Part shown: positions 1 to 24,895 of the stretch, in pieces
Layout: every line of letters begins with the position of its first letter
How positions within the stretch are numbered: the stretch's first letter is position 1
From: Bryobacteraceae bacterium
GTDB lineage: Bacteria > Acidobacteriota > Terriglobia > Bryobacterales > Bryobacteraceae
Assembly (NCBI GenBank): GCA_023384675.1
Contig: JAHDVK010000023.1
Coordinates: forward strand, 1-64,000
Length of the DNA stretch: 64,000 bases
Direction: 5' to 3'
The notes under the pieces: model-generated
Told to the model about the DNA's origin: nothing
Databases searched by the model: none
The model's input: only the letters and a program-made list of their open reading frames with translations
Program-made: the position numbers and the translations under genes

Positions 1-474
1 GAAGAAAAGAAATCGTGATCTGCACCGGCTTACGCAGGCTTGCCGAAAGGACACGGTCTTCGGCTGGATTGTATGTTGCTGAAGATAAACACGTTGCCAG
101 TGGCGGCAAGGGGCCGGCGGCTGCGGCGGGGTGGCGTGTCGTTTCGTAAGTGGTGCTTTATGAATGATTTGACGAAGGGAAGGGGCAGGCCCTGGGAGTG
201 CGGGCAATTTGGGGCTGTAAAACAAAGTGCCGCTGAAATGGTTTGTGGGACCAAGTGCTATCAGAATCAGTGGGTTGGGAGGATGAGTGGTGCGTGGAAG
301 GGAGGGAGAGCGGTGCGGCGGGGCCGGGTGGGTCATCTATAAGTCGTTCATAACAAGCGGTATGTCGAATTTTGCGACAGGGGGACGAGGTCATTGACCC
401 CATTGGCCCATAAATAATCACTTACCAAACGACACGCGACCCCCCCACATCCTGGAATTACGGTCACCTGCGGT
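1..474. other. intergenic region with diverged repeat copy
   Basis: No convincing gene is seen: the open frames here overlap on both strands and have no recognisable product. From about 240 to 411 the sequence resembles, with many differences, the blocks at 13440-13618 and 15693-15871. The best-kept part is a GCGACAGGGGG stretch followed by GAGGTCATTGACCCCATTGG, at about 373-407. It is therefore an old copy of the repeat described at 13.2-13.6 kb. Confidence 0.5.
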
Positions 475-4449: not shown

Positions 4450-4597
4450 CGCCCGCCGCCCAGACCGGTTTCATCGCGCCAAGGGTATAGCACGGGCGAT
4501 ATGAAGGCCCTGAGCTACGGAACGCAGGACTAAATTGGAGCGTCTGCGCGGGGGGGCCGATGTTGGGCCGCCGGGGTCAAAGACCTCGGTTCCTTTT

Positions 4598-4623
4598 CTA
4601 CCCCTGAGAATTTTTGGGGGTAG
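4598..4623. repeat. hairpin upstream of RAYT remnant
   Basis: Inverted arms CTACCCC (4598-4604) and GGGGTAG (4617-4623) lie 18 bases before the start of the transposase remnant. IS200/RAYT elements usually carry end hairpins, so this may be the old left end. The link is inferred from position. Confidence 0.35.
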
Positions 4624-4641
4624 ATCGCCACTATATCTTAT

Positions 4642-4905
4642 ATGCCCCGACTCCCGCGCCTGGTTCTCCCAGGCATTCCCCACCACATCACCCAGCGCGG
4701 GAACTACCGCCAAAAGACCTGTTTCCGGGCCGAAGACTACCGGCTCTACCTCCAACTCCTCAAGGACCATTCCCGTCATTATGGCGTCGGCTTGATCATC
4801 CCCCATGGACGAAGCATTTCTGGGCCGCTATGTTGTGGGTCGAGCAGAGCCGGTACGGGCCCGCCTCGCCGGGCAGTCTGAGCAATGGAGATGGTCCTTC
4901 AACGT
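4642..4905 (+). pseudogene. REP-associated tyrosine transposase (RAYT), internally deleted
   Basis: Residues 1-51 (4642-4794) read MPRLPRLVLPGIPHHITQRG onward to HYGVGL. This is the conserved N-terminus of Y1/IS200-like RAYT transposases, including the HITQRGN motif. The C-terminal signature (LDEAHFWAALRYVE-NPVRAGLV-WRWS in intact proteins) then appears in a different frame at about 4805-4905 as MDEAFLGRYV and VRARLAGQSEQWRWS. The middle of the protein, including the HUH and catalytic Tyr region, is missing, so the gene is dead. It is flanked by a hairpin at 4598-4623 and a REP-like palindrome at 4918-4939. Confidence 0.75.
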
Positions 4906-8086: not shown

Positions 8087-8114
8087 TATAGTGGGAGCGA
8101 AAAGGATAGGATTC

Positions 8115-9470
8115 ATGAGCGACCTTGCAGGCTTCAAGAAACAGGCGCGGGCAGAGCTGTTCGAGCTTCTCCGCATCCCCAGCATCAGCACAGATCCGGC
8201 GCGCAAACAGGACGTGGAGCGCGCCGCGGCCTTTGTCGAACAAGGCCTGAAACGCGCGGGGATGACCCGCACGGAATTGATCCGCGTGGGCGCGGGCCAT
8301 CCGCTCGTGTACGGCGAATGGCTCGGCGCGGAAGGGCGGCCGACGCTGCTGCTCTACGGCCATTACGACGTGCAGCCCGTGGAACCGCTGGACGAATGGA
8401 TTTCGCCGCCGTTCGAACCCACCGAACGCGACGGCAACGTGTATGCGCGCGGAGCGTGCGACGACAAGGGCCAGACGTGGATTCTGGTGAAGGCCGTGGA
8501 GTGGCTGATGCAGCGCGACGGCCGGCTGCCGGTGAACGTGAAATTCCTGATCGAAGGCGAAGAGGAGTGCGGCGGCGAATCGATCGCGGCGTATGTCGAG
8601 CAACACCCGGAGGCGCTGGCGGCGGATGCGGCGGTGATCTGCGACAGCGAAATGTTCGCGCCGGAGCTGCCTTCAATCTGCACCGGCTTGCGGGGCATCG
8701 CTTATGGCGAGCTGATCGTGGAGGGTCCGAAGACCGACCTGCATTCGGGCGTCTATGGCGGCGCGGCGCCGAACCCGCTGATGGCGGTGGCGGAGATCCT
8801 GACGGCGCTGAAAGGGCGCGACGGAAAGATTTCGATTCCGCATTTCTACGACCGCGTGGCGGAGCCGTCGCCGGAAGAGATGGAAGCCTGGGAATCGCTG
8901 CCATTCGACGAAGAGGAGTACCGCAAAAAGGAAGTGGGATCGCCGGAATTGACGGGCGAAGCGGGCTTTTCGGTGCTGGAGCGCGTGTGGGCGCGGCCGA
9001 CGCTGGAAGTGCATGGCATTCGCGGCGGATTCACGGGCGAAGGGGCGAAGACGGTGATCCCGGCGCGGGCGGTGGCGAAGATCTCGCTGCGGCTGGTGGC
9101 GGATCAAAGGCCGGAAGAGGCAGTGGAGCAGTTGAAGGCGGCGATCGAGGGGGTGACTCCGCGCGGGGTGCGGGCGTCGTTCCACCTGCTGCATGCGGGT
9201 GCGCCGTCGCTGGTGGATCCGGACAACGCCTATCTCAAAACGGCGGCTTCGGCGATGGAAGAGGTGTTCGGCAACAGGACGGTGTATATCCGCTCGGGGG
9301 GCTCGATTCCGATTGTGGGGCTGTTCGACCGCTTCCTCGAAATACCCAGCGTGCTGATGGGCTTCGGGCTGCCGGATGATAATCTGCACGCGCCGAATGA
9401 GAAGTTTTGTTTGGCGAATTTTGACCGAGGGATCGATGCGGTGGTGCGGTATTTGGAGTGGCTGGGGTAG
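8115..9470 (+). CDS. M20 family dipeptidase/deacylase
   Basis: 451 residues. Metal-site motifs of the M20 (ArgE/DapE/CPG2/carnosinase-like) family are clear: YGHYDVQP (H83, D85), GACDDKGQ (D115) and EGEEECGG (E149/E150). They imply a two-zinc hydrolase acting on dipeptides or N-acyl amino acids. The dimerisation domain contains the LHSGVYGG motif. There is no signal peptide, so it is cytoplasmic. The ATG at 8115 follows AAAGGA at 8101 and is divergent from the DUF255 gene with 28 bases between starts; a TATAGT hexamer at 8087-8092 could be its -10. The last 36 coding bases recur in two copies at 13351 and 15604. Confidence 0.9.
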
Positions 9471-9543
9471 GGGGGGAGGTTGGGGGGCGGCCCGGGACTG
9501 CCCGCCCCAACGCGCCCCGGACGAAGGAAGGAGCGCAGGCGCG

Positions 9544-9978
9544 ATGAGCAATGAAGTGGATATCGAGGGTCTTTGGGACACGCCGACAATCGCGGAGAGA
9601 CACGCCCACCATGTGCTCTACTCCTTTCCGGCTAACGTAGTTGCCAATTCGTCTGGTATTGTCGCGCTCACCATCGAGGGGGAGCGGGGTTGTGTTGTCC
9701 TGATTACCGCGGAAGCCGCTGAAATCCGACTCCCAACCACCGAGTGGACGAAGGGCGCCTACGCACCGAGGGCGTCCACTTGCTTCTGGAAACGTGTTGC
9801 GCTCCGGGAGACCCCATCCAGTTATCAGAAACTCGATCAAGTGATCGAAGCGGCAATCGCAGCGCGGAGGGCGGAATTCCAACCGTGCTGCTTCTGCCAT
9901 GAGGAGTTCCCGCCGGAGCACATGACGGATGATGCATGTCACGGCTGTGCGTCAGCGAATCGGGGGATCGTTTACTGA
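9544..9978 (+). CDS. hypothetical zinc-ribbon-like protein (duplicated)
   Basis: 144 residues from ATG 9544. I recognise no family. The C-terminus has two CxxC pairs, CCFC and CHGC, about 15 residues apart, as in small zinc ribbons. From codon 11 onward the DNA is repeated almost perfectly at 13628-14033, where the first ten codons are replaced. This means one copy is 5'-truncated or the N-terminus here is not native. It sits in a repeat zone, and selection on the protein is not shown. Confidence 0.45.
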   Translation: MSNEVDIEGLWDTPTIAERHAHHVLYSFPANVVANSSGIVALTIEGERGCVVLITAEAAEIRLPTTEWTKGAYAPRASTCFWKRVALRETPSSYQKLDQVIEAAIAARRAEFQPCCFCHEEFPPEHMTDDACHGCASANRGIVY

Positions 9979-10348
9979 GTGGATGGCGCTGGGGGGATGT
10001 ATTTTGAGTGTAGAAGCGGGGGTTGAGCGACATCAGACCGGAAGTGCGATCGCCATCGGTTCGGAACGCTGATCGGCTTCGGTCGGAATACGTACCGAGA
10101 ATTCGAAATGGATTGAAGCCGGATTTCGGGATTTCGGGGGCATTCATGATAGGGGGCGGTCCGGGACAGCCTGCCCCGCCCCAGCTCACTTTTCTGCGAA
10201 ATCGTAAGCGATTGAAAACATATGTGGTTCGGTCGCGCGAGGCACCCACGAGCGCAGCTACGGCTGAGGAACCCGGGGTGCCGCTGCGAAGAAGTGCTTT
10301 TGAATCAGTTAGATCCAAAAAGTGCTGTGGGACGGGTCAGGCTGACCC
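9573..10348 (+). repeat. long duplicated block, copy 1
   Basis: The block matches 13628-14413 with scattered substitutions and one 10-base insertion in the second copy. It contains most of the zinc-ribbon-like gene plus about 370 bases of downstream sequence. Its last 190 bases also occur a third time at 17065-17253. Confidence 0.85.
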
Positions 10349-10614
10349 GGCGCAGCCCGGCGCAGCCAGGCTGACCCGGCGCAGCCCCTACAACGTCGTG
10401 GCGGGGGCGGCGGAGTCCCTCGCCCTGACGGGCGAGGCTCGCGGGGCGGGTGGGACCACTTGGGCGGACTGAGAGTCCGCCGCGGGCTGAAGCCCGCCCT
10501 ACGACGGCGTGGCGGGGGCGGTGGGGGGCGGTAACATCGGTAACCTTGGGGGATTGCGTTTATATGCGTCTATTTTGTGTTCCAAATTTACGGACTCGCG
10601 GGTATGATTGACGC
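9979..10614. other. gene-free region: duplicated sequence and hairpin cluster
   Basis: No gene is supported. The first part belongs to the duplicated block. From 10334 to 10500 it is a chain of short perfect palindromes separated by GC-rich sequence. A possible -10 (TATGAT) lies about 16 bases before the next start codon. Confidence 0.55.
10334..10497. repeat. cluster of REP-like hairpins
   Basis: Four perfect inverted repeats: 10334-10348 (GGGTCA/TGACCC), 10418-10437 (CCTCGCCC/GGGCGAGG, loop TGAC), 10463-10481 (GGCGGACT/AGTCCGCC, loop GAG) and 10482-10497 (GCGGGC/GCCCGC, loop TGAA). The arms differ but several share a TGAC or TGAA loop, as do hairpins elsewhere in the window. Confidence 0.65.
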
Positions 10615-12549: not shown

Positions 12550-12612
12550 GCACTCGCGCAGTGCTGGCGGCATTCCCTCGCCCTGGCGGGCGAGGCGCGT
12601 GGTGGCGGGGTT

Positions 12613-13058
12613 GGGGCTTTTGGTTGGTGCCCCCGGCTGACGCCGGGGGCTCGAGCGGGCATTGGAGCTTTGGGTGATTGTCCGGCGCTGCCGGTTCGAC
12701 GGTGGACAGCCCGAGAAGTGTGACCCATTTGCCTGGGCTGATGGGTAAACCATGTCGCCGGGTTGGACCCTTTGGGTGCCCGCCCCCTTACGGGGGCGGC
12801 TGACGGAATCGCGGTGGGGCGGGGTGGGGGGGCTTTTGGTTGGTGCCCCCGGCTGACGCCGGGGGCTCGAGCGGGCATTGGACCTTTGGGTGATTGCCCG
12901 GCGCTGCCGGTTCGACGGTGGACAGCCCGAGAAGTGTGACCCATGTGCCTGGGCAGATGTGTAAACCATGTCGCCGGATTGGACCGAGATGGGGCTTGCG
13001 GGTTTTGCTGCTGCTTCGACGGCGAACTGCCCCGGAAGGGTGACCCATGTCGCCGGGC
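12613..13058. repeat. tandem repeat, 216-base period
   Basis: A unit at 12613-12769 recurs at 12829-12985 with few changes. A partial third copy (TTCGACGG...GTGACCCATGTCGCC) lies at about 13012-13058. Each full unit starts with a hairpin with arms GCCCCCGGC and GCCGGGGGC around TGAC (12629-12650 and 12845-12866). The spacer contains another hairpin at about 12780-12799. The array makes a repetitive open frame on the minus strand that I do not regard as a gene. Confidence 0.8.
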
Positions 13059-13147
13059 CAGATTGTGAAGTCATACGCGCTGTCCCCCTCCCTGACGGTC
13101 GGGGCTTGGAGAACGGTCCAATCCCGCGAGTGGGGGGCTTGGGTTGC

Positions 13148-13344
13148 GGGGACAGCACACTCAATCTCCAAGCTGCTTTCGGCGGGCGGGATTCAGTGGC
13201 CGGCGATCAACCCGCAGACCGTTGTGCCGAGCGACTCATCCTGTTGAATTGAAAGAACTCGGCGGGCGAATGGTCGCGGTCGGTTCGGGTGCTCTCGGTT
13301 GCCCGGGGGCATTCAGATTACATGTAAAGTGATTGAATGTCCCC
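13148..13344 (+). mobile_element. MITE-like element, copy 1
   Basis: 197 bases. The left end is GGGGACAGCACACTCAATC and the right end is GATTGAATGTCCCC. The ends are inverted copies of a GGGGACA...TCAATC pattern, extended outward by GGTTGC on the left and GAAACC on the right. No transposase is encoded. Copy 2 (15401-15597) has the same length, is nearly identical from 13201 onward and diverges more in its left part. Confidence 0.65.
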
Positions 13345-13618
13345 GAAACCGATGCGGTGGTCCGGTATTTGGAGTGGCTGGGGTAGGGGGCCGGTCGGAG
13401 GTGCTGGCGGGCCTTTTTGGGGATAAAGAACAAGATGCGGTTGAATTGTTCTTGAGTTCAAACGCGCATGGAATCAATGGGTTGTGGGTGTGTGATGTGC
13501 GGGGGTGGGGGAATGAGCGGTGTGGCCGGGCCGGGCTGATTCGTGCCTAAGTCGTTGCTGGCGTAGGGGTTGTTGGATTTCGCGACAGGGGGTCGAGGTC
13601 ATTGACCCCATTGGACCC
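13201..13618 (+). repeat. direct repeat block, copy 1
   Basis: About 418 bases match 15454-15871 at a constant offset of 2253 with only a few mismatches. The block runs from inside the MITE-like element through a fragment equal to the 3' end of the M20 peptidase gene (13351-13390), then to the GACAGGGGGTCGAGGTCATT motif. No coding sequence is evident in it. Confidence 0.85.
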
Positions 13619-13627
13619 ATTGGACCA

Positions 13628-14033
13628 TTGGGACACGCCGACAATCGCGGAGAGACACGCCCACCATGTGCTCTACTCCTTTCCGGCTAACGTAGTTGCC
13701 AATTCGTCTGGTATTGTCGCGCTCACCATCGAGGGGGAGCGGGGTTGTGTTGTCCTGATTACCGCGGAAGCCGCTGAAATCCGACTCCCAACCACCGAGT
13801 GGACGAAGGGCGCCTACGCACCGAGGGCGTCCACTTGCTTCTGGAAACGTGTTGCGCTCCGGGAGACCCCATCCAGTTATCAGAAACTCGATCAAGTGAT
13901 CGAAGCGGCAATCGCAGCGCGGAGGGCGGAATTCCAACCGTGCTGCTTCTGCCATGAGGAGTTCCCGCCGGAGCACATGACGGATGATGCATGTCACGGC
14001 TGTGCGTCAGCGAATCGGGGGATCGTTTACTGA
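13628..14033 (+). pseudogene. 5'-truncated duplicate of the zinc-ribbon-like gene
   Basis: This stretch matches the gene at 9544-9978 from its codon 11 to its stop, with no frameshift. The normal ATG is gone; upstream lies the GACCCCATTGGACC repeat, leaving only a TTG at 13602 in frame. Whether it is expressed is unknown. Intact reading despite truncation suggests the duplication is recent. Confidence 0.55.
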
Positions 14034-14413
14034 GTGGATGGCGCTGGGGGGATGTATTTTGAGTGTAGAAGCGGGGGTTGAGCGACGTAAGACTGGAGGC
14101 GCGATCGCCATCGGTTCGGAACGCTGATCGGCTTCGGTCGGAATACGCAGCGAGAATTCGAAAAAGATTGAAGCCGGATTTCGGGATTTCGGGGACATTC
14201 ATGATAGGGGGCGGTCCGGGGCGGTCCGGGACAGCCTGCCCCGCCCCAGCTCACTTTTCTGCGAAATCGTAAGCGATTGAAAACATATGTGGTTCGGTCG
14301 CGCGAGGCACCCACGAGCGCAGCTACGGCTGAGGAACCCGGGGTGCCGCTGCGAAGAAGTGCTTTTGAATCAGTTAGATCCAAAAAGTGCTGTGGGACGG
14401 GTCAGGCTGACCC
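13628..14413 (+). repeat. long duplicated block, copy 2
   Basis: Counterpart of 9573-10348, with a GCGGTCCGGG decamer doubled near 14221. It ends in GGGTCAGGCTGACCC like copy 1, but the sequence beyond is different. Confidence 0.85.
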
Positions 14414-14515
14414 GGGTCGCACGGGTCGCACACGGGTCGCCCCCATCGGCTTTCATCGGCCCAAACAGAATCCGAAAGATACGAGCTGCCCCACTCGAAT
14501 CTCGACTAGTATTGG

Positions 14516-15382
14516 ATGATGCTGTCGCGCAGGGTCCTCCTCGCCACCCCCTTGGCCCCGCTCCTGCGCAGCCAGGATCAAGCCCCCGCCATGTTCGCCG
14601 ACGCCAAAGCCTACGAGCAATTCATGGGACGCTGGAGCCGCCTCTTGGCCCCCCAACTCATCGACTTCACCAGCCTTCCCGATCAGGGCCGTTTCCTCGA
14701 CGCCGGCTCCGGCACCGGATCACTGGCCTTCGCCCTGGCGGAACGGAAACCGCTGGCCCGCGTGCTGGGCATCGACCCATCCAGGGAATACGTCGCCTAC
14801 GCAGACAGCCGCAACCCGTTTCCCGAAAGGGTAAGCTTCGAAACGGGAGATGCCCAGCAACTCCGCTTCCCCGGCGACACCTTCGACGCCAGTCTCTCCC
14901 TGCTCGTGTTCAATTTCATCCCCGACCCCGGCAAGGCGTTGCGGGAACTGCGCCGCACAACAAGACCAGGGGGCCGGATCTCGGCCGCCGTTTGGGACTA
15001 CGGCGCTGGAATGGGCATGCTCCTGGCGTTTTGGGACAGCTTGGCGGCCACCGACCCAAGCGCCGCGAAAGCCGCTGAGAAGTTCATGCCGCTGAGCCGG
15101 TCAGGCGAACTGTCCGCCCTTTGGCGCCAGGGCGGCCTGGAAGACGTCCACGAACAGCCGCTCGTGATCACGATGCGTTTCGAATCCTTCGCGGACTACT
15201 GGGACCCGTTTCTCCTGGGACAAGGCCCTGCCGGTGTTTACGTCAAGCAGCTCGCTCCCGAGCAGAGAAGCGCTCTCCGCGCTGAAGTGAAGCGCCGGAT
15301 CTCCCCCTCCGCGGAAAGCCTGCCCATTGCTCTCGACGCCCGCGCCTGGGCGGTCCGAGGCACAGTCCCGGCTCGCAAGTGA
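14516..15382 (+). CDS. class I SAM-dependent methyltransferase
   Basis: 288 residues. The Rossmann-type SAM site is LDAGSGTGSLA (about residues 62-72), followed by GIDPS and GDAQQLRFP, as in ubiE-like Methyltransf_11 proteins. Substrate unknown. The N-terminus MMLSRRVLLATPLAPLLRSQ looks like a short Tat or export signal, unusual for a SAM-dependent enzyme; it may simply be a hydrophobic leader, or translation may begin later at MFADAKAY. A TAGTAT hexamer lies only three bases before the first ATG. The gene is alone between repeat blocks, suggesting acquired or relocated DNA. Confidence 0.8.
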   Translation: MMLSRRVLLATPLAPLLRSQDQAPAMFADAKAYEQFMGRWSRLLAPQLIDFTSLPDQGRFLDAGSGTGSLAFALAERKPLARVLGIDPSREYVAYADSRNPFPERVSFETGDAQQLRFPGDTFDASLSLLVFNFIPDPGKALRELRRTTRPGGRISAAVWDYGAGMGMLLAFWDSLAATDPSAAKAAEKFMPLSRSGELSALWRQGGLEDVHEQPLVITMRFESFADYWDPFLLGQGPAGVYVKQLAPEQRSALRAEVKRRISPSAESLPIALDARAWAVRGTVPARK

Positions 15383-15400
15383 TGTTGGGTTTCGGGTTTC

Positions 15401-15597
15401 GCGGACTGTACACTCAATCGCCAAACTCCTTCCGGTGAGCGGGGCTGGGAGTTCGGCGATCAACCCGCAGACCGTTGTGCCGAGCGACTCATCCTGTGGA
15501 ACTGAAAGAACTCGGCGGGCGAATAGTCGCGGTCGGTTCGGGTGCTCTCGGTTGCCCGGGGGCATTCAGATTACATGTAAAGTGATTGAATGTCCCC
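15401..15597 (+). mobile_element. MITE-like element, copy 2
   Basis: Same length and right end as copy 1. The left end reads GCGGACTGTACACTCAATCG, a variant of GGGGACAGCACACTCAATC. It begins about 19 bases after the stop of the methyltransferase gene. Confidence 0.6.
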
Positions 15598-15871
15598 GAA
15601 ACCGATGCGGTGGTCCGGTATTTGGAGTGGCTGGGGTAGGGGGCCGGTCGGAGGTGCTGGCGGGCCTTTTTGGGGATAAAGAACAAGATGCGGTTGAATT
15701 GTTCTTGAGTTCAAACGCGCATGGAATCAATGGGTTGTGGGTGTGTGATGTGCGGGGGTGGGGGAATGAGCGGTGTGGCCGGGCCGGGCTGATTCGTGCC
15801 TAAGTCGTTGCTGGCGTAGGGGTTGTTGGATTTCGCGACAGGGGGTCGAGGTCATTGACCCCATTGGACCA
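15454..15871 (+). repeat. direct repeat block, copy 2
   Basis: Counterpart of 13201-13618. It includes a second copy of the M20 3'-end fragment at about 15604-15643. It stops matching after CCATTGGACC. Confidence 0.85.
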
Positions 15872-16006
15872 TTGGACGAAATGGCGGATTTCGCGAAGGG
15901 CTCTTGCTTCAGGCTGGCCCGTTCGCGCCCAGTTCGAGCCTACTATCACACCATTTCGTGAATGATGAGCCGAACAGGCTTACACCTGAGCCTGGCCCTG
16001 GTGCGG

Positions 16007-16831
16007 CTAATCCGGAAACGCGACCATAGGAGTCGCCGAATATGAGCCTGTTGGATGAAAGCGAATGCATACGGCCGCAATTGAATTAGGCCACATTCCT
16101 GGTAATCCAATGCTCACATTATCGACTACTATGGTTCCCGTCCTGTTGGCGAGATCGGGATACCTCTCGGCTACGGAGAACGCCATGTGCTCGGCTGGCT
16201 GAAGATTCAGAGGAAAGGCATGAGTCTGATTTCCAGCAGTGTCCAAGACCCGCAAGATGTATTGTTGAGCACGGGGGGAAGGATTCACCAACGCTAATCC
16301 AGTAGCAAAGCCTCCGCTTGTATCCAGTAGCCCCCACAATTTCTTATAATATGAGTAGTCAGCCAGACCGCTGCCTTCGCTGTCAATCCGTCCCGGAACC
16401 CGCTGCCGAAAAGTGTAAAAGGCATCCACGTCGCCCGAAGACTGTTGCTCAATGTATGCGAAACCTTGCTCAGTATTCGAAGTAGCGTCGGAGGTTTCAA
16501 GTCGAGTCAGACCCCTTGCTGACAGTCGGACAGTCAACGAGTCAGCCATCCGGGTCGTACCGGATGAATCGATTGTCGTAATTATCCAAGGGGTGCCACC
16601 GCTCTTGAAAAACCGAACGACAACATTGACGTCGCGGGTTCGGCGGTTAAGAATACGAATTTCCGTTTTCCACCCTCCCCCATCTGCAACTTGCGGAACC
16701 CACCTGCGCAACACCACAGCCGAGTCATCGAAAGGACCGGGAAGCTGTGCCAACAATGCCGGGGATGGCACTAAGACTATTGAAATTAGGCAAAGAAGGC
16801 TAATCGGTGTTTGCAATTTTGGCCTCCACAT
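16007..16831 (-). CDS. exported hypothetical protein
   Basis: 274 residues with a clear signal peptide (ISLLCLISIVLVPSPALLAQ). The mature part begins with RRWVPQVADGGGWKTEIRILN, a pattern found in exported acidobacterial beta-sandwich proteins of unknown role; I know no biochemical function. The gene is visibly less GC-rich than neighbours and uses many A/T-ending codons, consistent with horizontal acquisition into this repeat zone. It stands alone on the minus strand. Confidence is good that it is a gene and low on function. Confidence 0.7.
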   Translation of the reverse strand: MWRPKLQTPISLLCLISIVLVPSPALLAQLPGPFDDSAVVLRRWVPQVADGGGWKTEIRILNRRTRDVNVVVRFFKSGGTPWIITTIDSSGTTRMADSLTVRLSARGLTRLETSDATSNTEQGFAYIEQQSSGDVDAFYTFRQRVPGRIDSEGSGLADYSYYKKLWGLLDTSGGFATGLALVNPSPRAQQYILRVLDTAGNQTHAFPLNLQPAEHMAFSVAERYPDLANRTGTIVVDNVSIGLPGMWPNSIAAVCIRFHPTGSYSATPMVAFPD

Positions 16832-16950
16832 CCTATGCCGATTCTTGAAAGAATGCTACGCCTTTCGAGAATGAACTGTAAGGAGCGTATCATAGAGAGT
16901 GGGGACATTCAAGGCCAAGCCGAAGTCACAAGGGGCCTGCCCGGGGTTGC

Positions 16951-17056
16951 GGGGACAGCACACTCAACCTCCAAACTTCCTTCGGCGAGCAGGACTCAGT
17001 GGACGGCGATCAACCCGCAGACCTTTGTGGCAAGCGACTCATCCGGTTGGATTGGG
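16951..17056 (+). mobile_element. MITE-like element, copy 3 (right half missing)
   Basis: The left end GGGGACAGCACACTCAACC and about 100 bases of the element are present. It is then cut at CCGGTTGGATTG and joined directly to the third copy of the GGGACAGCCTGCCCC block. Confidence 0.6.
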
Positions 17057-17064
17057 CGGTCCGG

Positions 17065-17253
17065 CGGTCCGGGACAGCCTGCCCCGCCCCAGCTCACTTT
17101 TCTGCGAAATCGTAAGCGATTGAAAACATATGTGGTTCGGTCGCGCGAGGCACCCACGAGCGCAGCTACGGCTGAGGAACCCGGGGTGCCGCTGCGAAGA
17201 AGTGTCTTCGAATCAGTTAGATCTAAAAAGTGCTGTGGGACGGGTCAGGCTGT
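17065..17253 (+). repeat. short block copy 3 (matches 10157-10345 and 14222-14410)
   Basis: About 189 bases match at an offset of 6908 from the first copy with few substitutions. It starts with CGGTCCGGGACAGCC and ends with GGGTCAGGCTG. Here it appears without the zinc-ribbon-like gene, so it can exist as a separate unit. It contains no convincing gene. Confidence 0.75.
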
Positions 17254-17342
17254 CCCGGGTCGTCCCGGGTCGCGGGTCGCCGGGTCGCACCCACAGGGGC
17301 TGTAGGATCCAGGCGAAGCGCGGGATTGCTACCATTTGAGCC

Positions 17343-18665
17343 ATGCCAGGGTTTCTGAAGAGGGCCTGGAACACGGGGCGGCTGGGCGTTTGGGCGCGCA
17401 GGGAGGGGGCAATTGCGTACTGGGACCGGCAGGAACTTGCGCGGGTGCAGGACCGGCGGGTCCGGGCGCTGGTGGCGCACGCCTGGAGGGAGACAGCGTA
17501 CTACCGCGAGTGGCTGAAGGCGGCCGGGGCGGAGCCTGGCGACATCCGGGGGGCTGCGGATTTGGCGAGGCTGCCGGTGATCGACAAAATCGTACTGACC
17601 AGGCGCCCGGAGCGCTTCGAGGCGGAATCGCTGAAGGGTACAGACGGGATCACGCTGCATTCGAGCGGCACATCGGGTTACCGGCGGCATTTGCGCCATG
17701 ATGCGAGGGCGGTGTTGCAGGCGCTGGCGGCGGGGCGGCGGCAGAGGCTGGCGCTGGCCGAGTATGTGGGGCGGGAGTCGGGGTACCGGGAGGCGATCTT
17801 CAACCGGGATGGGTCGGTGGGTGGGCAGTTGCGCGCGTTTATCGAGACGCGGACGTGGGTCCCCAAGGCGGTGGAATTGCGCCGGCGGCTGTTTTCGCCG
17901 GTACTGCCGTTCGCGGAGTTGACGGCGGGCGTGGATGCGTTTCAGCCGGAAGTGATTCGCGGTTATGGGTCGCATCTCGGGGCGTTTTACCAATGGCTGG
18001 CCGAGAGCGGGCGGCAGTTTCACAAGCCGCGGGCGATTGTTTACGGGGCGGACGCGATGCCGCCGGCACAACGGCGGTTGATCGAGCAGGAACTCGGAAT
18101 CCCGGTATTGAGCACCTACCAGGCGGTGGAAGCGTTGCGAATCGGGTTTGAGTGTTCGCAGCGGAAAGGGTTTCACATCTCGGTGGATCAGGTCGTGGTG
18201 CGCGTGCGCGACAAGGGGCCGGGCGAACGCGGCGAGATGGTGTTGACGAATTTGTGGAACTACGCGACGCCGGTGATCAATTATCAGTTGGGGGATCTGG
18301 TGACGCTGAGCGACGGGCTGTGTCCATGCGGGCGGACGCTGCCATTGCTGACGTCGATCGATGGGCGGGCGGATGATCTGGTGGCGCGGCCGGACGGGAC
18401 GCGCGTACACGCGCTGGCGGTGCTGGCGCCGCTGCAGAAGGCGCCGGGAGTGATGCAGGTACAGGTGGAGCAGCGGGCCTTCGACGATTTTCTACTGCGC
18501 GTGATCTGGCGGCAGGGGGAGCCACGCGACGAGGACGAACTGAAGCGGCGGTTCAGGCAGGTGCTCGGCGCCGGGGCAGCGGTGCATGTCGAGGAGGTCC
18601 ACGCGATTGCGACGACGAGCGCGGGCAAGGTGAAGAGCTTGATTTCGCGGCTGGAGCAGCGATGA
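17343..18665 (+). CDS. CapK/PaaK-like adenylate-forming enzyme
   Basis: 440 residues related to phenylacetate-CoA ligase and CapK. The ATP P-loop motif is HSSGTSGYRRH (about residues 102-112), and YQAVEALRIGF and INYQLGD match the later core motifs. A CPCGRTLP zinc-like cluster precedes the C-terminal lid domain. Such enzymes activate a carboxylate as acyl-AMP; CapK relatives occur in surface polysaccharide and natural-product loci. It overlaps the next gene by four bases (ATGA), so the two are translationally coupled. No glycosyltransferases or carrier proteins lie nearby, so the substrate cannot be guessed. Confidence 0.82.
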   Translation: MPGFLKRAWNTGRLGVWARREGAIAYWDRQELARVQDRRVRALVAHAWRETAYYREWLKAAGAEPGDIRGAADLARLPVIDKIVLTRRPERFEAESLKGTDGITLHSSGTSGYRRHLRHDARAVLQALAAGRRQRLALAEYVGRESGYREAIFNRDGSVGGQLRAFIETRTWVPKAVELRRRLFSPVLPFAELTAGVDAFQPEVIRGYGSHLGAFYQWLAESGRQFHKPRAIVYGADAMPPAQRRLIEQELGIPVLSTYQAVEALRIGFECSQRKGFHISVDQVVVRVRDKGPGERGEMVLTNLWNYATPVINYQLGDLVTLSDGLCPCGRTLPLLTSIDGRADDLVARPDGTRVHALAVLAPLQKAPGVMQVQVEQRAFDDFLLRVIWRQGEPRDEDELKRRFRQVLGAGAAVHVEEVHAIATTSAGKVKSLISRLEQR

Positions 18666-19945
18666 TCGGGGAGATCGCAGAGTTCGCGTCGCTGTTGCTG
18701 CACCGCCGGTGGAGCGCCGAACGGACGCGGGCGCACCGGGACGAACGGATCCGGACGCTCGTGGCGCACGCCTACGAGAATGTGCCCTATTACCGTCGGA
18801 TGATGGACGCGCGGGGGTTGAAACCGCAGCAGATCCGTTCGGCGCGGGACCTCGAGGCGCTCCCGGTGACGACGAAACAGGACCTGCGGGCGGCGGGGAC
18901 GGATTGTGTGGACCCGCGCGCAACGGATTTGTACCGGGTGGCGACGTCGGGGAGTTCGGGAGAACCGTTCGAGCAGATCCTGACGCAGGCGGAGTACCGG
19001 CGTCGCCGGTTGCGGGAGTTCCGGTCGCTGATCGGAGTGGGGCTCAAGCCGCTGGACCGGCTGGCCGTGCTGGGTCCGGTGCGGACGAGGCCGCGGCGAC
19101 TGCACCGGTCGCTGGGGCTGTACCGGATCGAAGTGATTCCATTCGACGCCCGGCCCGAGGAGCAGGCGCGCCGGATCGAGCGGGCGTGTCCGGATGTGCT
19201 GTGGATCTACTCGACGGTGCTGAAACAGGTGTTGTCGCACACGGGGGGCCGGCTGAGCGATCTCGCGCGGCCGAGGCTGTTGATCTCGTCGTCGCAGGTG
19301 CTGGACTCGCCGTTCCGGCAGCAGTTGCTCGACGATCTGCCGGGCGCGCGGATCGCGGAGTTGTATGGATCGGCGGAGGCCGGCCGGATCGCGGCGGGAT
19401 GCCGCGAGGATGACGGGTTGCACCTGGAGGACGACGCAGTCCATGTGGAACTGCTGGAGGGGGGGCGGCGGGTGGAGGAGGGCGAGGAGGGAACGACCGT
19501 CATCACCTGCCTGGACCAGTGGGCGATGCCGCTGATCCGGTACGAGCAGGGAGACCGGTGCCGGATGCGGCCAGGGCGGTGCCGATGCGGGCGGTCGTCG
19601 CCGCTGATGGACTCGCCGCTCGGCCGCTGCGCCGACATGATCACGCTGCCGTCGGGGCGGCGGTTGTCGGCACTGGCGTTTGACGCTGTCGTGCGCCAGG
19701 TGCCAGGGCTGGTGCAATACCGGTTCGTGCAGAGGCGGCGGGACCGGTTGGAGGCGCAGTTCTGCTTTCAGACGCCGCCGCCGGCGGGAGTCCTCGAGGA
19801 GATTGCGGGGCGGGTGCGCGAGGTGCTGCGAGAGCAGGTGGAGGTGAGCGTGGGGCTGTTCGGGGTGGAGGAGATCCGGGGGCCCAAGTTCAAATCGGTG
19901 GTCTCGCTGCTGGAGGAACAGGCAACGGGACCCGGCCCTGAGTGA
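18662..19945 (+). CDS. second CapK/PaaK-like adenylate-forming enzyme
   Basis: 427 residues, a paralogue of the preceding protein. It keeps VAHAYENVPYYRRMM near the N-terminus, the P-loop ATSGSSGEP (about residues 97-105), LYGSAEAG, LIRYEQGDR and a CRCGRSSP cluster. The coupled pair could act as a heteromer or on two related acids; both are inference. Downstream, hairpins at 19997-20031 separate it from the convergent hydrolase gene. Confidence 0.82.
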   Translation: MIGEIAEFASLLLHRRWSAERTRAHRDERIRTLVAHAYENVPYYRRMMDARGLKPQQIRSARDLEALPVTTKQDLRAAGTDCVDPRATDLYRVATSGSSGEPFEQILTQAEYRRRRLREFRSLIGVGLKPLDRLAVLGPVRTRPRRLHRSLGLYRIEVIPFDARPEEQARRIERACPDVLWIYSTVLKQVLSHTGGRLSDLARPRLLISSSQVLDSPFRQQLLDDLPGARIAELYGSAEAGRIAAGCREDDGLHLEDDAVHVELLEGGRRVEEGEEGTTVITCLDQWAMPLIRYEQGDRCRMRPGRCRCGRSSPLMDSPLGRCADMITLPSGRRLSALAFDAVVRQVPGLVQYRFVQRRRDRLEAQFCFQTPPPAGVLEEIAGRVREVLREQVEVSVGLFGVEEIRGPKFKSVVSLLEEQATGPGPE

Positions 19946-19996
19946 AAGGGCGGAGCGCTGGGCTTCGCCCTTCTCAAGTTCCAACGCGGCTGTAGG

Positions 19997-20031
19997 GCGG
20001 GCGTCCAGCCCGCGCGGAGCTTCAGCTCCGC
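19997..20031. repeat. two adjacent REP-like hairpins
   Basis: GCGGGC/GCCCGC around GTCCA (19997-20013) directly followed by GCGGAGC/GCTCCGC around TTCA (20014-20031). They lie between convergent genes, a normal place for REP-type sequences. A weak element-end-like GATTGAGTG follows at about 20086. Confidence 0.6.
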
Positions 20032-20153
20032 CTATGCGAACGAGCGCGGAGGGCTTGCCTGAACTGCCTCCTCGCCACACAAAGCGATTGAGTGCCCGTT
20101 CCCAAAACCTGGATCTCGGGCCGGGGGGCGGCCCATCCTGACCATCGGCGAGG

Positions 20154-21491
20154 TTAGGTCATCGCCAGGAGCGAGGCGAACGCCCAGGTGATGTGTTTGT
20201 TGCGGACGTCGCCGTGGTCCTTGATGAGGTTCGCCCCATTTTCGGCACGGCTCCCGTCGAGGTTATAGAGTTTGCCGGGGGCGAAGGAGTAGGGCTCACT
20301 CGCGAGTTTGAGGTCCAGCCCGACGGTTTCCGGGGTATCCAGAACGCCGTTGCGCCCTACACCGCCGAAACGGCTGTTTTCATCGCCGATAGCCTTCGAG
20401 TTATTCAGGCTGAGCGCGGCCATGCTGGTGTAGGCGAAGCCGACGACCGAGTCGTGCCGGGAATGCGTGGCGAGAATTGGCTGCTTGACCACCTGTTTTT
20501 CGATGATATCGCGGAAAAAGCCACGCTTGCGGCTGCCTTTTCCGGGGCTTAATCCGAAATGGGAATAAGCTGCCTGTAGAAGCAGCATCGACTCGACTTC
20601 GACTTTCGGGTTCGCGAGGAGGCCCTTGGCACAGGCGGTGACGGCGCGCCCGCCAAGGCTGTGGCCGACGAGATGGATGCGCAGCGCGGGCCGGGCCTTT
20701 TTGGCGTCGCGAACGATTCGGGTGAGGCCGGCTTCTCCGATGGTGCCGCAGCGTTCGAACATGGGCAGGAACGTCGTGAGATTGACAAATTTCGGGACAA
20801 ATCCGAAGACTTTTCCAAAAATGGATTGAGCGCTTCCGCCGCCGCCGCCCGCGCGAGGGTCGAGAGTCGGAATTCCGACTCTGCGCGCGCCGCCGGTTGG
20901 GGCAGAGATGGGCGTCTGGTCGCCGAAGGCGAAGGCGCGCACGAGCGTAGAGGGCTTCCCCTTTTCAAGCGCGGTGGAGAACTCGGACGTGAGCCCGCCG
21001 CCGATTTCAGAGGCGAGATCGAGCAGGGCCTGGGCCATGGCCAACTGAGCCTTTTCGTTCCCCTTCTCAGCCTGGGGGAGTTGGGCGAGCATCGCGTCGA
21101 TGTGGGTCTGCTGGGCCTTTGGGAGTTCCTTTTTGAGGTCCTTCAGGCGCTTGGCGTTTTCACTGGCGCCGCCCGCGGACAGAGCGCCGCCGCTACCGCG
21201 CTTTTCACTAAAGACCATGGACGGCCAGAGGGCGCCGGCGACCGCGAACTTGCGGGAACCGAGGGCGCCGCGCAGCGTGGCGTGTTTGAGTTGGGGACCC
21301 AGGTTGCCGAGGAACTCAGAGTAGAGGTTGGTGGCGTCGGCGGCATCGTTGCGGAAGCCGTGGCACATGACGATGAGGTCGGTGACCGGTTCCTCGCCGA
21401 TGTACTGTACGAGGCCGGGCAGACCGCCGGTGACCTTGCCTTTGCGGTCGAAAGTGACCGCCTGATAGGGAAAATTCTGAAGAGTTTCCAT
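20154..21491 (-). CDS. serine hydrolase (alpha/beta fold), partner of subtilase
   Basis: About 445 residues. The nucleophile elbow is GHSLGG in the second half, preceded by the early strand LIVMCHGFRN. This fits a lipase/esterase-like alpha/beta hydrolase with a long Ala/Glu/Lys-rich insertion before the nucleophile. No signal peptide or membrane segment is seen. AAGGAGATATT precedes the ATG at 21491, so I prefer that over the ATG at 21506. It begins 19 bases after the stop of the S8 peptidase gene, so the two form an operon. The substrate is unknown, and I do not recognise the pair from a described system. Confidence 0.75.
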   Translation of the reverse strand: METLQNFPYQAVTFDRKGKVTGGLPGLVQYIGEEPVTDLIVMCHGFRNDAADATNLYSEFLGNLGPQLKHATLRGALGSRKFAVAGALWPSMVFSEKRGSGGALSAGGASENAKRLKDLKKELPKAQQTHIDAMLAQLPQAEKGNEKAQLAMAQALLDLASEIGGGLTSEFSTALEKGKPSTLVRAFAFGDQTPISAPTGGARRVGIPTLDPRAGGGGGSAQSIFGKVFGFVPKFVNLTTFLPMFERCGTIGEAGLTRIVRDAKKARPALRIHLVGHSLGGRAVTACAKGLLANPKVEVESMLLLQAAYSHFGLSPGKGSRKRGFFRDIIEKQVVKQPILATHSRHDSVVGFAYTSMAALSLNNSKAIGDENSRFGGVGRNGVLDTPETVGLDLKLASEPYSFAPGKLYNLDGSRAENGANLIKDHGDVRNKHITWAFASLLAMT

Positions 21492-21510
21492 CAATATCTC
21501 CTTCATTCGA

Positions 21511-23064
21511 TCAAACTGCCTGCAGCACTTTCATCAGGTCCAATAGGCCGCGGCCCTGATAGGCGCGTTCTCTTTTTAAGTCGATCGTATTATCGAGAAA
21601 AAGACGTTTGACTTTCTCAGGTTGACCGATGAATTCGCGGCGGACGGAAAGAAAGGCCGCAATCGCGCCGGAGACGTGGGGGGCGGCCATGCTGGTGCCG
21701 CTCTGTTCGAGGTAATCCACCTGTTTTTTGGGCTTGAGCTGCCCTTCAATCGCGCTTTTGAATCCGCCGGCGGCACAGGAGATGATGCGTTCGCCCGGGG
21801 CGACGAGGTCCGGTTTGAGGCGGCCGTCGCCAGTGGGTCCGCGGGATGAGAAGTACGAGACGCCGTACGTGTGCGGGCGCTCGCGGTGCGTCGATCCCAC
21901 GGTGATGGCAAGCTCGGAATTGCCGGGGTCGCTGATGCTGGCGTCACGGTAGCCGAGTTCATTGGCGCCTTCGGCCGTGAGGCTGACGGCGGAAAAGCCG
22001 GAGTTGCCGGCCGCGACGACAACCACGACGCCGGAGCGAACGAGGCGGTCCACCTCGACACAGATGGGGCTGTGGCCGCAGGCGAACCAGCGGGGGTTGA
22101 AGTCGTAACCGAGGCTCATATTGACGCCGTGGATCGCCGCGCCGGGCAGCGGGAGGCGGCGGCCGTGATCGTTGATCGTCTGGATATGGTCCAGGGCGCG
22201 AAGGACGGAACTGACGCGGCCGGCGCCGCTGGAATCGAGCACCTTGAGGCTGACAAGGTTGGTCTTGGGAGCGATGCCGGCGATGTAGCCAAGCTGATAC
22301 AGTTGGACCTCGGCCGTGACGTCGCCATCGTCACCGACTCCGGTCATGGCCTCCTGGGCGGCGATTGGCTTGCGCCTGGCGCCTTCACTCTCCAGGCAGC
22401 CGGCGATAATGCCCGCGACGTGGGTCCCGTGTCCGAAGTCATCACGAAATGGGTCCTTTTCGCCGGTGAAATCCTTTGACCAGCGGGCGGAAACAACATT
22501 ACCGTATTTCGTAAAATGTCTATGCTTTTTGTCAATGCCGGAATCGAGGACGGCCCAGACGATGCCGTCGCCCATGGCGTTGAAGGAGCGCTGGGCGGCC
22601 TCGGCTTTGATGGTGGCGGCGGAAGTGGTGAGGCAGGGGTGGACCACCTCATCCTTCCAGACGCGGTAGATGGGACCCGCCCGGCCGGGGCCAAGATTGT
22701 CGAGCCACTTCCTGTAATCGGCGGCGAGGGCGAGAATCTGGCCGCCGCCCATCGTGACGAAAGCATAGTGGCCACCGCAGAAATCCAGGTTCTTGGGCGG
22801 GGGCGTAAGCTGGCGAAGTGTCGCCTCCACTTGAAGCCGGGCATCCGCGACGGTTTCGTTCAATGCAATGATGATGTCGAAATCACTCTCGGGCTTATTC
22901 CGGATGTCGCTGATCAGCGGCTCGGTGATGAGGCCGCGAAGCATGTCCTTGTGGAGTTGTTCGCGGGTGTACCGGTCTGATGGCTCGCGCTTTCCCGCGG
23001 CTGGCTTTTCGGGCTTGGGCGTGGCTCCTTGCTTCCCTTTTTTCCCCACTGGCTTTTCAGGCAT
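21511..23064 (-). CDS. S8 subtilisin-like serine peptidase, apparently cytoplasmic
   Basis: 517 residues. The catalytic triad is complete: D174 (AVLDSGI), H212 (GHGTHVAG), S458 (GTSMAAPH), with oxyanion N354 (AAGNSG). There is no signal peptide. The N-terminus is Lys/Pro-rich and followed by about 100 residues (SDFDIIIALNE, AFVTMGGGQILALA) in the position of an I9-like propeptide. An intracellular subtilase coupled to a hydrolase is less usual than a secreted one. It could be a regulated processing protease or part of a conflict-type module, by inference only. The ATG at 23064 is the first plausible start. Confidence 0.85.
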   Translation of the reverse strand: MPEKPVGKKGKQGATPKPEKPAAGKREPSDRYTREQLHKDMLRGLITEPLISDIRNKPESDFDIIIALNETVADARLQVEATLRQLTPPPKNLDFCGGHYAFVTMGGGQILALAADYRKWLDNLGPGRAGPIYRVWKDEVVHPCLTTSAATIKAEAAQRSFNAMGDGIVWAVLDSGIDKKHRHFTKYGNVVSARWSKDFTGEKDPFRDDFGHGTHVAGIIAGCLESEGARRKPIAAQEAMTGVGDDGDVTAEVQLYQLGYIAGIAPKTNLVSLKVLDSSGAGRVSSVLRALDHIQTINDHGRRLPLPGAAIHGVNMSLGYDFNPRWFACGHSPICVEVDRLVRSGVVVVVAAGNSGFSAVSLTAEGANELGYRDASISDPGNSELAITVGSTHRERPHTYGVSYFSSRGPTGDGRLKPDLVAPGERIISCAAGGFKSAIEGQLKPKKQVDYLEQSGTSMAAPHVSGAIAAFLSVRREFIGQPEKVKRLFLDNTIDLKRERAYQGRGLLDLMKVLQAV

Positions 23065-23353
23065 GGGCGTCGCTCCTCAATGCACGGCTCTGACTGCTCA
23101 GGGCATCTTTGCACAGGCGCGAGCACGAAGTCCAGCCCAATCTCGGGATTGGATCAACCGCGGGGCGGCAATTGGACAGGATATTCGGGTGAATCGGTGC
23201 GGCAGGTGGTGAGATAGTCCTCGATTTTGCGGACGACAGCCGCATTCTGAGGCTCCGCACGAGTTCTTGCAGGCGGGAGATCCGTGTCCGGAGGCGGGCT
23301 GTGGCGGCAAGGTCTTCGCCGCCCAAGTTCCGGAAGCTGCCGGCGGGGGTTTC

Positions 23354-23533
23354 GGGGACTCAATCACTTTACCTCGAAGCTGCATGCCTCCGGGCAACCG
23401 CCAGCACCCGAACCAAACGCCAACCGAGTTCTTTCAATCCAACAGGATGAATCGCTCGCCACGACGTTCAACGGGTTGATCGCCGAACACTCAGCCCCGC
23501 TCCAGGGATGTAGTTTGGCGATTGAGTGTCCCC
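23354..23533 (-). mobile_element. MITE-like element, copy 4 (inverted)
   Basis: 180 bases. On the plus strand it begins GGGGACTCAATCACTTTACC and ends GATTGAGTGTCCCC, so it is in the opposite orientation to the other copies. Its internal TTCTTTCAATCCAACAGGATG matches their reverse complement. It is more diverged than copies 1 and 2. Confidence 0.6.
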
Positions 23534-23540
23534 GAAATCG

Positions 23541-23567
23541 AAATGCCATTCAGCGCGGGAACTACCG
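23541..23567 (+). pseudogene. tiny RAYT fragment
   Basis: The sequence ATTCAGCGCGGGAACTACCG corresponds to the transposase motif (H)IQRGNYR. The same words occur in the RAYT remnant at 4.69 kb (CCAGCGCGGGAACTACCG). It sits exactly between two MITE-like copies. Confidence 0.45.
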
Positions 23568-23573
23568 GGTTGC

Positions 23574-23769
23574 GGGGACAGCACACTCAATCTCCAAGCT
23601 GCTTTCGGCGGGCGGGATTCAGTGGCAGGCGATCAACCCGCAGACCTTTGTGGCAAGCGACTCATCCGGTTGGATTGAAAGAACCGGGCGGGCGAATGGC
23701 CCCTTTCGGTTCGGGTGCTCGCGGTTACTGGGGGCTTTGAGATTCAATGTAAGGTAATTGAGTGTCCCC
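23574..23769 (+). mobile_element. MITE-like element, copy 5
   Basis: 196 bases. The left end is GGGGACAGCACACTCAATC as in copy 1; the right end AATTGAGTGTCCCC is slightly changed. It ends nine bases before the ATG of the downstream alpha/beta hydrolase, so the element supplies that gene's upstream region. Confidence 0.6.
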
Positions 23770-23778
23770 GGAATCCAA

Positions 23779-24672
23779 ATGACCGTGCCAATCCATCAAA
23801 CAAACGCTTCCGGGCGGCGTTCAGCATTGCTGAAGTCAGCTTGCCTTTTCCTGACGTTCGTGATGACTGCCGTGCCGGCGCAGCAGAAGCCAACGACGCG
23901 CTACGCGCCAGTCAATGGAGTCAACATGTATTACGAAGTTCACGGCAGCGGCGATCCCGTGGTGCTGCTCCACGGCGCGTTCATGACCATCACCAACAAC
24001 TGGACCGGGTGGATCGAAGAGTTGTCCAAGACGCGGAAAGTGATTGCCGTCGAAATGCAGGGCCATGGGCGCACGGCGGACATCCCACGCGACCTCACCT
24101 ACGAAAACCTCGCCGGCGATGTGGCGGCGCTGCTCGATCACCTGAAAATCCCGCGCGCGGACCTCATCAGTTACAGCATGGGCGGGACCGTGGCGATGCA
24201 ATGTGCGATCCGCTATCCGGACAAAGTCCGAAAGGTGGTCGTCATTTCGTCCAGGTTCCGCCACGACGGCTTTGTGAAGGAAGGGCTCGACGCGATCGCG
24301 AAACTCAGCGCGGACGTCTTCAAGGGTTCGCCCCTTGAAGACGAGTACAAGAAGCTGAGCCCGACGCCAGACCAGTTTCCGAACTTCGTCAAGCGCGTGG
24401 TCGCGATGGCTTCGAAACCGTTCGACTTCGGCGACGGCAAGCTCAAGGCGACCGAAGCTTCGATGTTCTTCATCCACGGCGACGCGGATGGGGTGCGGCT
24501 TGCGCACGTCGCGGAGATGTATCGCCTGAAGGGTGGCGAGATCCACGGCGACATGGCGCCGCGCTCCGCATCGCGATTGGCCATTTTGCCCGACACCACT
24601 CACGTGACATTGATGCAGCGCATACGCATCATCGTGCCGATGGTGAACGACTTTCTCGACGCCAAACCCTAG
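23779..24672 (+). CDS. exported alpha/beta hydrolase
   Basis: 297 residues. A signal peptide ([20 protein letters not shown]) precedes a standard alpha/beta hydrolase domain. The oxyanion strand is VVLLHGAF, the nucleophile elbow is SYSMGG, the acidic region is [10 protein letters not shown] and the His near the end is in LPDTTHVTL. Related proteins are often annotated as esterases or epoxide-hydrolase-like, but the substrate is unknown. The ATG at 23779 is chosen because upstream sequence is MITE-like element copy 5. An in-frame TTG at 23758 lies inside the element. No partner genes are adjacent. Confidence 0.82.
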
Positions 24673-24696
24673 CCGTGCTCCCAATCTGCAATCTCC

Positions 24697-24755
24697 GGGC
24701 GATCAGGTGACTGGGCGATCAGGGGATCAGGGGATCAGGTGACTGGACCCCAATT
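24697..24755. repeat. short direct repeats GATCAGG(G/T)
   Basis: GATCAGG recurs four times within 50 bases, partly as a tandem GATCAGGGGATCAGGGGATC run and twice within GATCAGGTGACTGG. It lies in the 287-base gap before the oxidoreductase operon and is followed by a decayed CCTCGCCC/GGACGAGG hairpin near 24826-24845. No gene is in the gap. Confidence 0.5.
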
Positions 24756-24895
24756 GACCTAATCGCCGGCCTCAGCAAGCCCCACCGAGCCTCGCGCTGA
24801 CCCGCCAGCTAGCAGCGCCTCGACCTCGCCCTCACGGACGAGGCTCCTTTCGCCAGCAACTCCTCAACCCTTCGAGCGCCTGGGATCTGCCCCCC

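Follow-up and report, generated by a model that had tools for sequence, protein, structure and literature searches.

TIRYT elements, also called TIRtrons, carry a RAYT-like Y1 transposase gene between terminal inverted repeats (TIRs) with the motif GGGGWSAS, and their described hosts include Acidobacteria; some of the TIRs constitute repeat families, whether single, dimeric or grouped (accessible text of Di Nocera et al. 2013, PMC3733652). A related description is that of TnpAY1 subclass 2.1, which corresponds to RAYT group 1 and is the second largest Y1 transposase-like group; in the accessible sections of the survey no REP-like sequences are reported beside its genes, and its link to TIRYTs is said to need further analysis (Quentin et al. 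2018, PMC6006769). Here, we describe a family of ~195-bp repeats, F1, in a stretch of contig JAHDVK010000023.1 from a Bryobacteraceae bacterium (positions 1-64,000, referred to as the window; the genome that holds it, G000, has 5,734,819 bases in 60 contigs). These repeats are very probably non-autonomous elements that share their ends with a TIRYT, that is, a RAYT-like element with an HUH single-tyrosine transposase, of the same genome, a reading drawn from sequence comparison.

The locus resembles TIRYTs, as far as these are described in the accessible text of PMC3733652, in a transposase gene on contig C6, in its GGGGWSAS ends and in its acidobacterial host. It differs in that a ~195-bp element has a conserved interior, one pair of ends encloses different interiors in different elements, each of two such families is paired with a TIRYT of its own, and phased arrays lie outside the ends. 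With subclass 2.1, as portrayed in the sections of PMC6006769 at hand, the C6 gene shares the protein length (~238 aa), an NHVH-type HUH motif, an SS motif after the tyrosine domain and a C-terminal extension, and no GTAG REPs were noted beside it. Judged from its sequence, the C6 gene fits TIRYTs and subclass 2.1, not GTAG-type REPs. The IS200/IS605 family (IS608, ISDra2) has the HUH Y1 fold in common with it, but long inverted terminal repeats are found here and subterminal hairpins there, and the protein class is different.

F1 repeats in the window and across the genome

The initial annotation listed five copies of the repeat, and all are present:

13148..13344, + strand: full copy (197 nt), subfamily A of family F1; left end 13148-13166, right end 13331-13344
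15401..15597, + strand: full copy (197 nt), subfamily A; inside a block duplicated from or to 13135-13625
16951..17054 (end approximate), + strand: left half of an F1 copy; right half missing; abuts an F2 element
23354..23533, - strand: full F1 copy, inverted (180 nt); short-form left end
23574..23769, + strand: full F1 copy (196 nt); right end 9 nt upstream of the ATG at 23779

The length range given for full copies (180-197 nt) and the truncation of the copy at 16951, which ends at ~17054, also stand. Full copies in the window start with ~GGGGACA(GYRC)ACTCAATC and finish with GATTGARTG(..)TCCCC. The left end is usually preceded by GGTTTC or GGTTGC and the right end usually followed by GAAACC; at the 15401 copy GGGTTTC occurs twice in tandem immediately outside the left end. 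Ends come in a long form, GGGGACAGYRCACTCAATC, or in a form five bases shorter, GGGGACACTCAATC, and the combinations vary. Column identity averages 82% across 13 aligned copies, and because 1-nt indels and a 10-nt deletion in this alignment disrupt the frame, the repeats are non-coding, in line with the earlier denial of shared coding potential. Such conservation, together with the copy that stops 9 nt before a start codon, could be expected of a structured RNA or regulatory element retained for host function. We regard this as extremely improbable: a search of Rfam gave no match to the F1 repeat, neither strand of the 13148 copy folds unusually (z -1.2 and -0.7), one pair of 39 shows changes on both sides, and the repeat is absent from two of the three congeners searched.

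Across the genome, the left end GGGGACAGYRCACTCAATC has 21 matches with at most 3 mismatches, as against 1 for a reversed control pattern, and the right end GATTGARTGTCCCCG has 13 with at most 1 mismatch, as against 0; the end matches are far above chance expectation. With the 23574 copy as query, 12 matches were obtained in the genome: 11 belong to subfamily A, and the remaining one is the right-hand part of an element on C1. Subfamily A consists of the five window copies (one truncated) and one copy each on C15, C14, C42, C21, C13 and C38, so the repeat is not confined to this locus; such confinement was an outcome that the initial annotation had named as refuting its family. Four elements with both F1 ends and different middles make up subfamily B (C21:113140, C1:66547, C38:1735 and C10:21358). 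The ends are kept where the 60-nt flanks look unrelated by eye, so that end conservation holds with the flanks excluded. In a search of 61 genomes, the own one included, matches occur in two, G000 (12) and the same-genus G001 (4), and none in the congeners G002 and G003.

Dispersal mainly by segmental duplication and recombination, with the repeats as passive relics, has some basis in the window. Two pairs of duplicated blocks occur there (13135-13625/15387-15877 and 9573-10350/13628-14415), and some F1 copies are truncated or mosaic. The first pair is 95% identical, including its right flank, where 41 nt resemble the end of the open reading frame (ORF) 8076-9470. Since the 13148 and 15401 copies both lie in this one segmental duplication, they are not independent, and since they differ in their left halves, the duplicated block is a mosaic. 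As an account of the family we consider such dispersal quite unlikely, because copies on seven contigs have the same start and stop positions in flanks that look unrelated.

A TIRYT gene with the same ends

Of eight Y1_Tnp matches in the genome, one, the gene at C6:59308-60006 (235 aa), is preceded by GGTTTCGGGGACAGTACACTCAATCACTTT and, beyond its stop codon, followed by GTAAAGTGATTGAGTGTACTGT. The closest relative of its product, among five loci in a named genome collection, is from Bryobacterales bacterium UBA8773, where a partial gene is 88% identical over query residues 56-233 (the contig begins within the gene) and carries an uninterrupted right end, ...GTACTGTCCCCGAAACC / ...GATTGAGTGTACTGTCCCCGAAACCC. 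The ends of the gene-bearing element, taken from the left side on C6 and the right side in UBA8773, are inverted repeats of ~30 nt that match the ends of the 195-bp repeats; GGGGACAGYRCACTCAATC and AAGTGATTGARTGT are common to both. They are terminal repeats with the GGGGWSAS motif, as seen in GGGGACAG at the C6 left end and in the complete right end in UBA8773. A transposase gene with the same ends, which the initial annotation had proposed looking for, is thus present, and it is RAYT-like. The description "MITE-like or RAYT-derived" (MITE, miniature inverted-repeat transposable element) is essentially upheld by it and is refined to the TIRYT branch rather than the REP/REPIN-type RAYTs.

The C6 protein matches Pfam Y1_Tnp with 43 bits, and N59, H60, H62 and Y119, among them the HUH histidines and the tyrosine, are invariant among 37 homologues. 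Its AlphaFold model (mean pLDDT 91) is closest to E. coli TnpA-REP 4er8 (Z 16.6, 2.5 A over 157 residues); against IS608 and ISDra2 chains Z is 7.7-9.6 (IS608 9.6). A single-sequence search of the PDB with this protein gave no match, and in a profile search 4er8 was the best of 6. The conserved C-terminal extension reads TGRPLG..F...LE, with helices between 157 and 207 in the model. In the four TIRYT proteins scanned, no helix-turn-helix or DnaA Pfam match was found at E<=1; the NCBIfam model REP_Tyr_transpos is the best for all four, three of which fall below its cut-off.

Decayed TIRYT genes or their 3' ends were observed at C50:92276-92467, C53:73421 (by eye only), C6:58120 and C21:112315-112691. 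Beyond the remnants at C50:92276, C6:58120 and C53:73421 lie F1-type right ends, and the one on C21 adjoins a subfamily B element. The genome thus seems to hold decayed autonomous elements.

Terminal repeats also occur at homologous loci. For the genome and its relatives, 34 loci were taken from a longer match list and 8 truncated ones were left out; inverted repeats score at least 16 at 15 of the 26 testable loci, with a top score of 12 among five shuffles per locus. In a phylum-wide sample (28 loci fetched, 4 skipped; one locus, L145, is of the same family), 19 of 24 score at least 14, which is also the top shuffle score, and GGGAC is present in 14 of these 19. This differs from the absence of REP-like sequences in the accessible sections of the subclass 2.1 survey (PMC6006769).

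Target-site duplications, another feature that the initial annotation had suggested looking for, were not found around 12 copies, where direct repeats of the own flank pair average 3.6 nt as against 3.7 nt for mismatched pairs. F1 is in this respect unlike a classical MITE that depends on a DDE transposase acting at its terminal inverted repeats. That origin would suit the size, the terminal repeats and the lack of coding capacity, but a Y1 HUH transposase gene is the only one seen with F1 ends (no search was aimed at other transposase families of this genome), and we judge it very unlikely. IS608 and ISDra2 are likewise not known to duplicate their target.

REPINs and BIMEs, in which palindromic REPs with a GTAG-type foot stand in inverted pairs and are mobilised by a REP-type RAYT, share with F1 that they are short non-autonomous repeats with proposed Y1 transposase mobilisation. 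The inverted pairs of ends, the Y1 partner and the REP_Tyr_transpos model named above speak for such an assignment, as does folding in part: the named end hairpins of F1 are paired in 82.7% of cells (slid controls 31-51%), and of 31 terminal repeats from different families, a selection from those found, 13 fold better than shuffles (p<=0.05). However, the hairpin covariation is at shuffle level, its score being reached by 125 of 500 shuffles and its percentage paired by 222 of 500, and folding of the F1 terminal repeats is not stronger than that of shuffles (p 0.52 and 1.0). No GTAG or GTGG foot was seen in F1, whose ends read GGGGACAG; an interior of ~150 bp is conserved, longer than in REPINs, and copy number is low, at only about 15. 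We therefore consider a REPIN/BIME origin quite unlikely. Hairpin recognition as a general rule was rejected on the covariation and folding results; it holds for some families.

The reading of F1 as non-autonomous partners of a TIRYT element thus has its basis in the shared ends, in copies on seven contigs and in the presence of several TIRYT genes that differ from one another in their end sequences. On sequence grounds, we infer that the repeats are moved in trans by the C6 TIRYT. The transposase would bind terminal repeats of the GGGGACAG type of either element on single-stranded DNA and would cut beside the G-run, and the excised strand would be joined elsewhere without duplication of the target. 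Several observations weigh against this reading. The right end of the C6 element is interrupted, apparently by an insertion sequence (IS) that begins there. Beyond the ends, the repeat interior nowhere resembles the TIRYT element by eye, and the 195-bp repeat is therefore not a simple internal deletion. Detectable terminal repeats are not universal among homologues (11 of 26 loci score below 16, and 5 of 24 below 14). Part of the copy number, namely the 13148/15401 duplication, does not come from transposition. Finally, no empty site was found when the joined flanks of 23 copies (17 F1, 6 F2) were compared with the sequence in hand.

Other TIRYT families and phased arrays outside the ends

Besides F1, the window carries ends of three further TIRYT families of the genome: F2 (GGGACAGCCTGACCCGTCCC; TIRYT at C13:113840), F3 (GTGACTGGACCCCAATT; C42:88446) and F4 (GGGGTCAAAGACCTCGG; C42:128063). 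Apart from the C6 gene, three Y1 genes of the genome with long terminal repeats bear ends unlike those of F1 (L056, L058 and L060), and that at C13:113840 is one of them. F2 is a second non-autonomous family of ~190 bp; the genome has 9 matches to it of 161-189 nt, and the window contains three of these. The F2 end sequence is matched on either side of the C13 TIRYT, and the pairing of a passenger family with a transposase is therefore seen twice, in F1 and in F2. The features of these families in the window are as follows:

10155..10350, + strand: F2 copy; ends CGGGACAGCCTG...
14220..14415, + strand: F2 copy; two-unit GGGGCGGTCC array outside the left end, GGGTCGCA-type array outside the right end
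17063..17258, + strand: F2 copy
24737..24755, + strand: solitary F3 end, identical over 19 nt to the C42:88446 terminal repeat; preceded by a GGGATCAG tandem array
4573..4794, + strand: F4 end (4573-4593), then the remnant of an N-terminal TIRYT gene part (4642-4794)
13589..13609, - strand: F4-like end GGGGTCAATGACCTCG with an outer GGTCCAAT array
15842..15862, - strand: F4-like end, second copy in the duplicated block
381..401, - strand: F4-like end

Several of these ends are bordered by short tandem arrays. A tandem self-match of at least 9 nt lies outside the core at 33 of 61 distinct F1-F4 ends in the genome, as against 2 of 61 just inside (Fisher 1.6e-10) and 174 of 3000 random positions (Fisher 7.6e-24). 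The region scored was the 40 nt outside the core with its first 4 nt, and the threshold (run >=9) was picked after a first look at 85 ends. The 61 ends come from tighter patterns than those 85 and are limited to loci in hand with enough flank, and so are no census; two F4-like ends among them belong to one duplicated block. By family, an outer array is present at 7/20 ends of F1, 15/21 of F2, 3/6 of F3 and 8/14 of F4. The units are mostly 7-10 nt long and vary among copies, in F2 also between both ends of one copy. In 30 of the 33 arrays the periodicity reaches into the core, and in 29 it halts after 1-4 nt, about the G-run.

The blocks 9573-10350 and 13628-14415 are 10 mismatches and one indel apart, and this sole indel corresponds precisely to a single 10-nt unit of the left F2 array; beyond the F2 right end, where the blocks diverge, the arrays differ. 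It therefore seems that, once an element is in place, its arrays change by single units. Outside this genome the signal is weaker: in one set, arrays lie outside 8 of 30 ends and inside 1 of 30, three of the eight being the genome's own F2 and F3, and in the phylum-wide sample the counts are 6 of 38 outside, 3 of 38 inside and 5 of 192 at random positions, with some runs unphased.

Phased arrays outside TIRYT ends are a new observation here. In the accessible text of the papers found to use the term TIRYT, from a library without most subscription papers, no mention of arrays beside such ends was found, further titles searched do not suggest any, and the word "tandem", which occurs 8 times in the accessible text of Di Nocera et al. 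2013 (PMC3733652), is never used there about TIR flanks. The arrays may arise from replication slippage at a G-rich junction or from nicking and resealing by the enzyme. We put forward, tentatively and as the doubtful option, that a TIRYT nicks repeatedly at the G-run and that extension and resealing of the nick, with no transposition taking place, would add one array unit each time; the unit would then be the first 1-4 core bases with the adjacent flank.

Insertion sequences, possible rearrangements and outlook

Single F1 ends had also been proposed at four further positions in the window. Those at 10133 and 14198 exist as half ends, ..TTTCGGGGACA (the one at 10133 has one change), fused with 11 nt from the end of an unrelated IS, TTCATGATAGG, while at 16902 (GGGGACATTCAAGG) and 20086 (GATTGAGTGCCCG) the matches are weak.

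10131..10153, + strand: half F1-like end joined to 11 nt of an IS left end
14186..14208, + strand: half F1-like end/IS junction, in the duplicated block

The IS, with left end TTCATGATAGGTATCTGTC and right end TTGAATGCATAGGTAGGGG, seems to be seated inside the GGGGACAGT core of TIRYT ends. Its right junctions in the genome are at C6:60023, C38:142263, C50:92487 and C5:60685, three of the four in an exact F1 end, and its left junctions are at C6:59100, C59:28, C1:59, C52:45 and C17:219742 and at 10143 and 14198 of the window. Several left junctions come after TTTCGGGGACA, and most junctions are at contig ends. The IS may target TIRYT ends, as some IS target REPs.

A host segment with an ORF of ~140 aa is duplicated (9434-10350 and 13350-14415); the copy begins at an F1 right end and similarity ceases at an F2 right end, and it could be host DNA moved between mismatched ends. 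Ahead of the first F1 element, after the gene that ends at 12549, sits a ~177-bp GC-rich repeat (12596-12985), present as two copies 94% identical with ~215 spacing. G001 has orthologues of several window genes, and similarity stops close to element clusters; for three of its contigs the similarity ends near TIRYT-type or weak F1-like ends at 17259-17327, 19934-20100, 23769-23773 and 24672-24885. This is suggestive of rearrangement at TIRYT ends between 17.3 and 24.9 kb, in a region dense in ends. Downstream of the 23574 copy (ATG 23779) lies a gene that we take, from its sequence, to encode an alpha/beta-hydrolase-like protein, and the element may supply its 5' region. The G001 orthologue (L180, 93% identical) has an apparent relic of an F1-like end, AGTGATTGAGTATGC, upstream instead, and its locus therefore does not count as an empty site.

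Several probable members of subclass 2.1 occur together in this genome, each with its own ends and two with passenger families. The genome thus supplies ready substrates for testing what such proteins cut. If the arrays reflect cutting, the cut position is predicted within a few bases, and if the nicking explanation is true, an array would mark both the cleavage position and the past activity of a large class of transposases.

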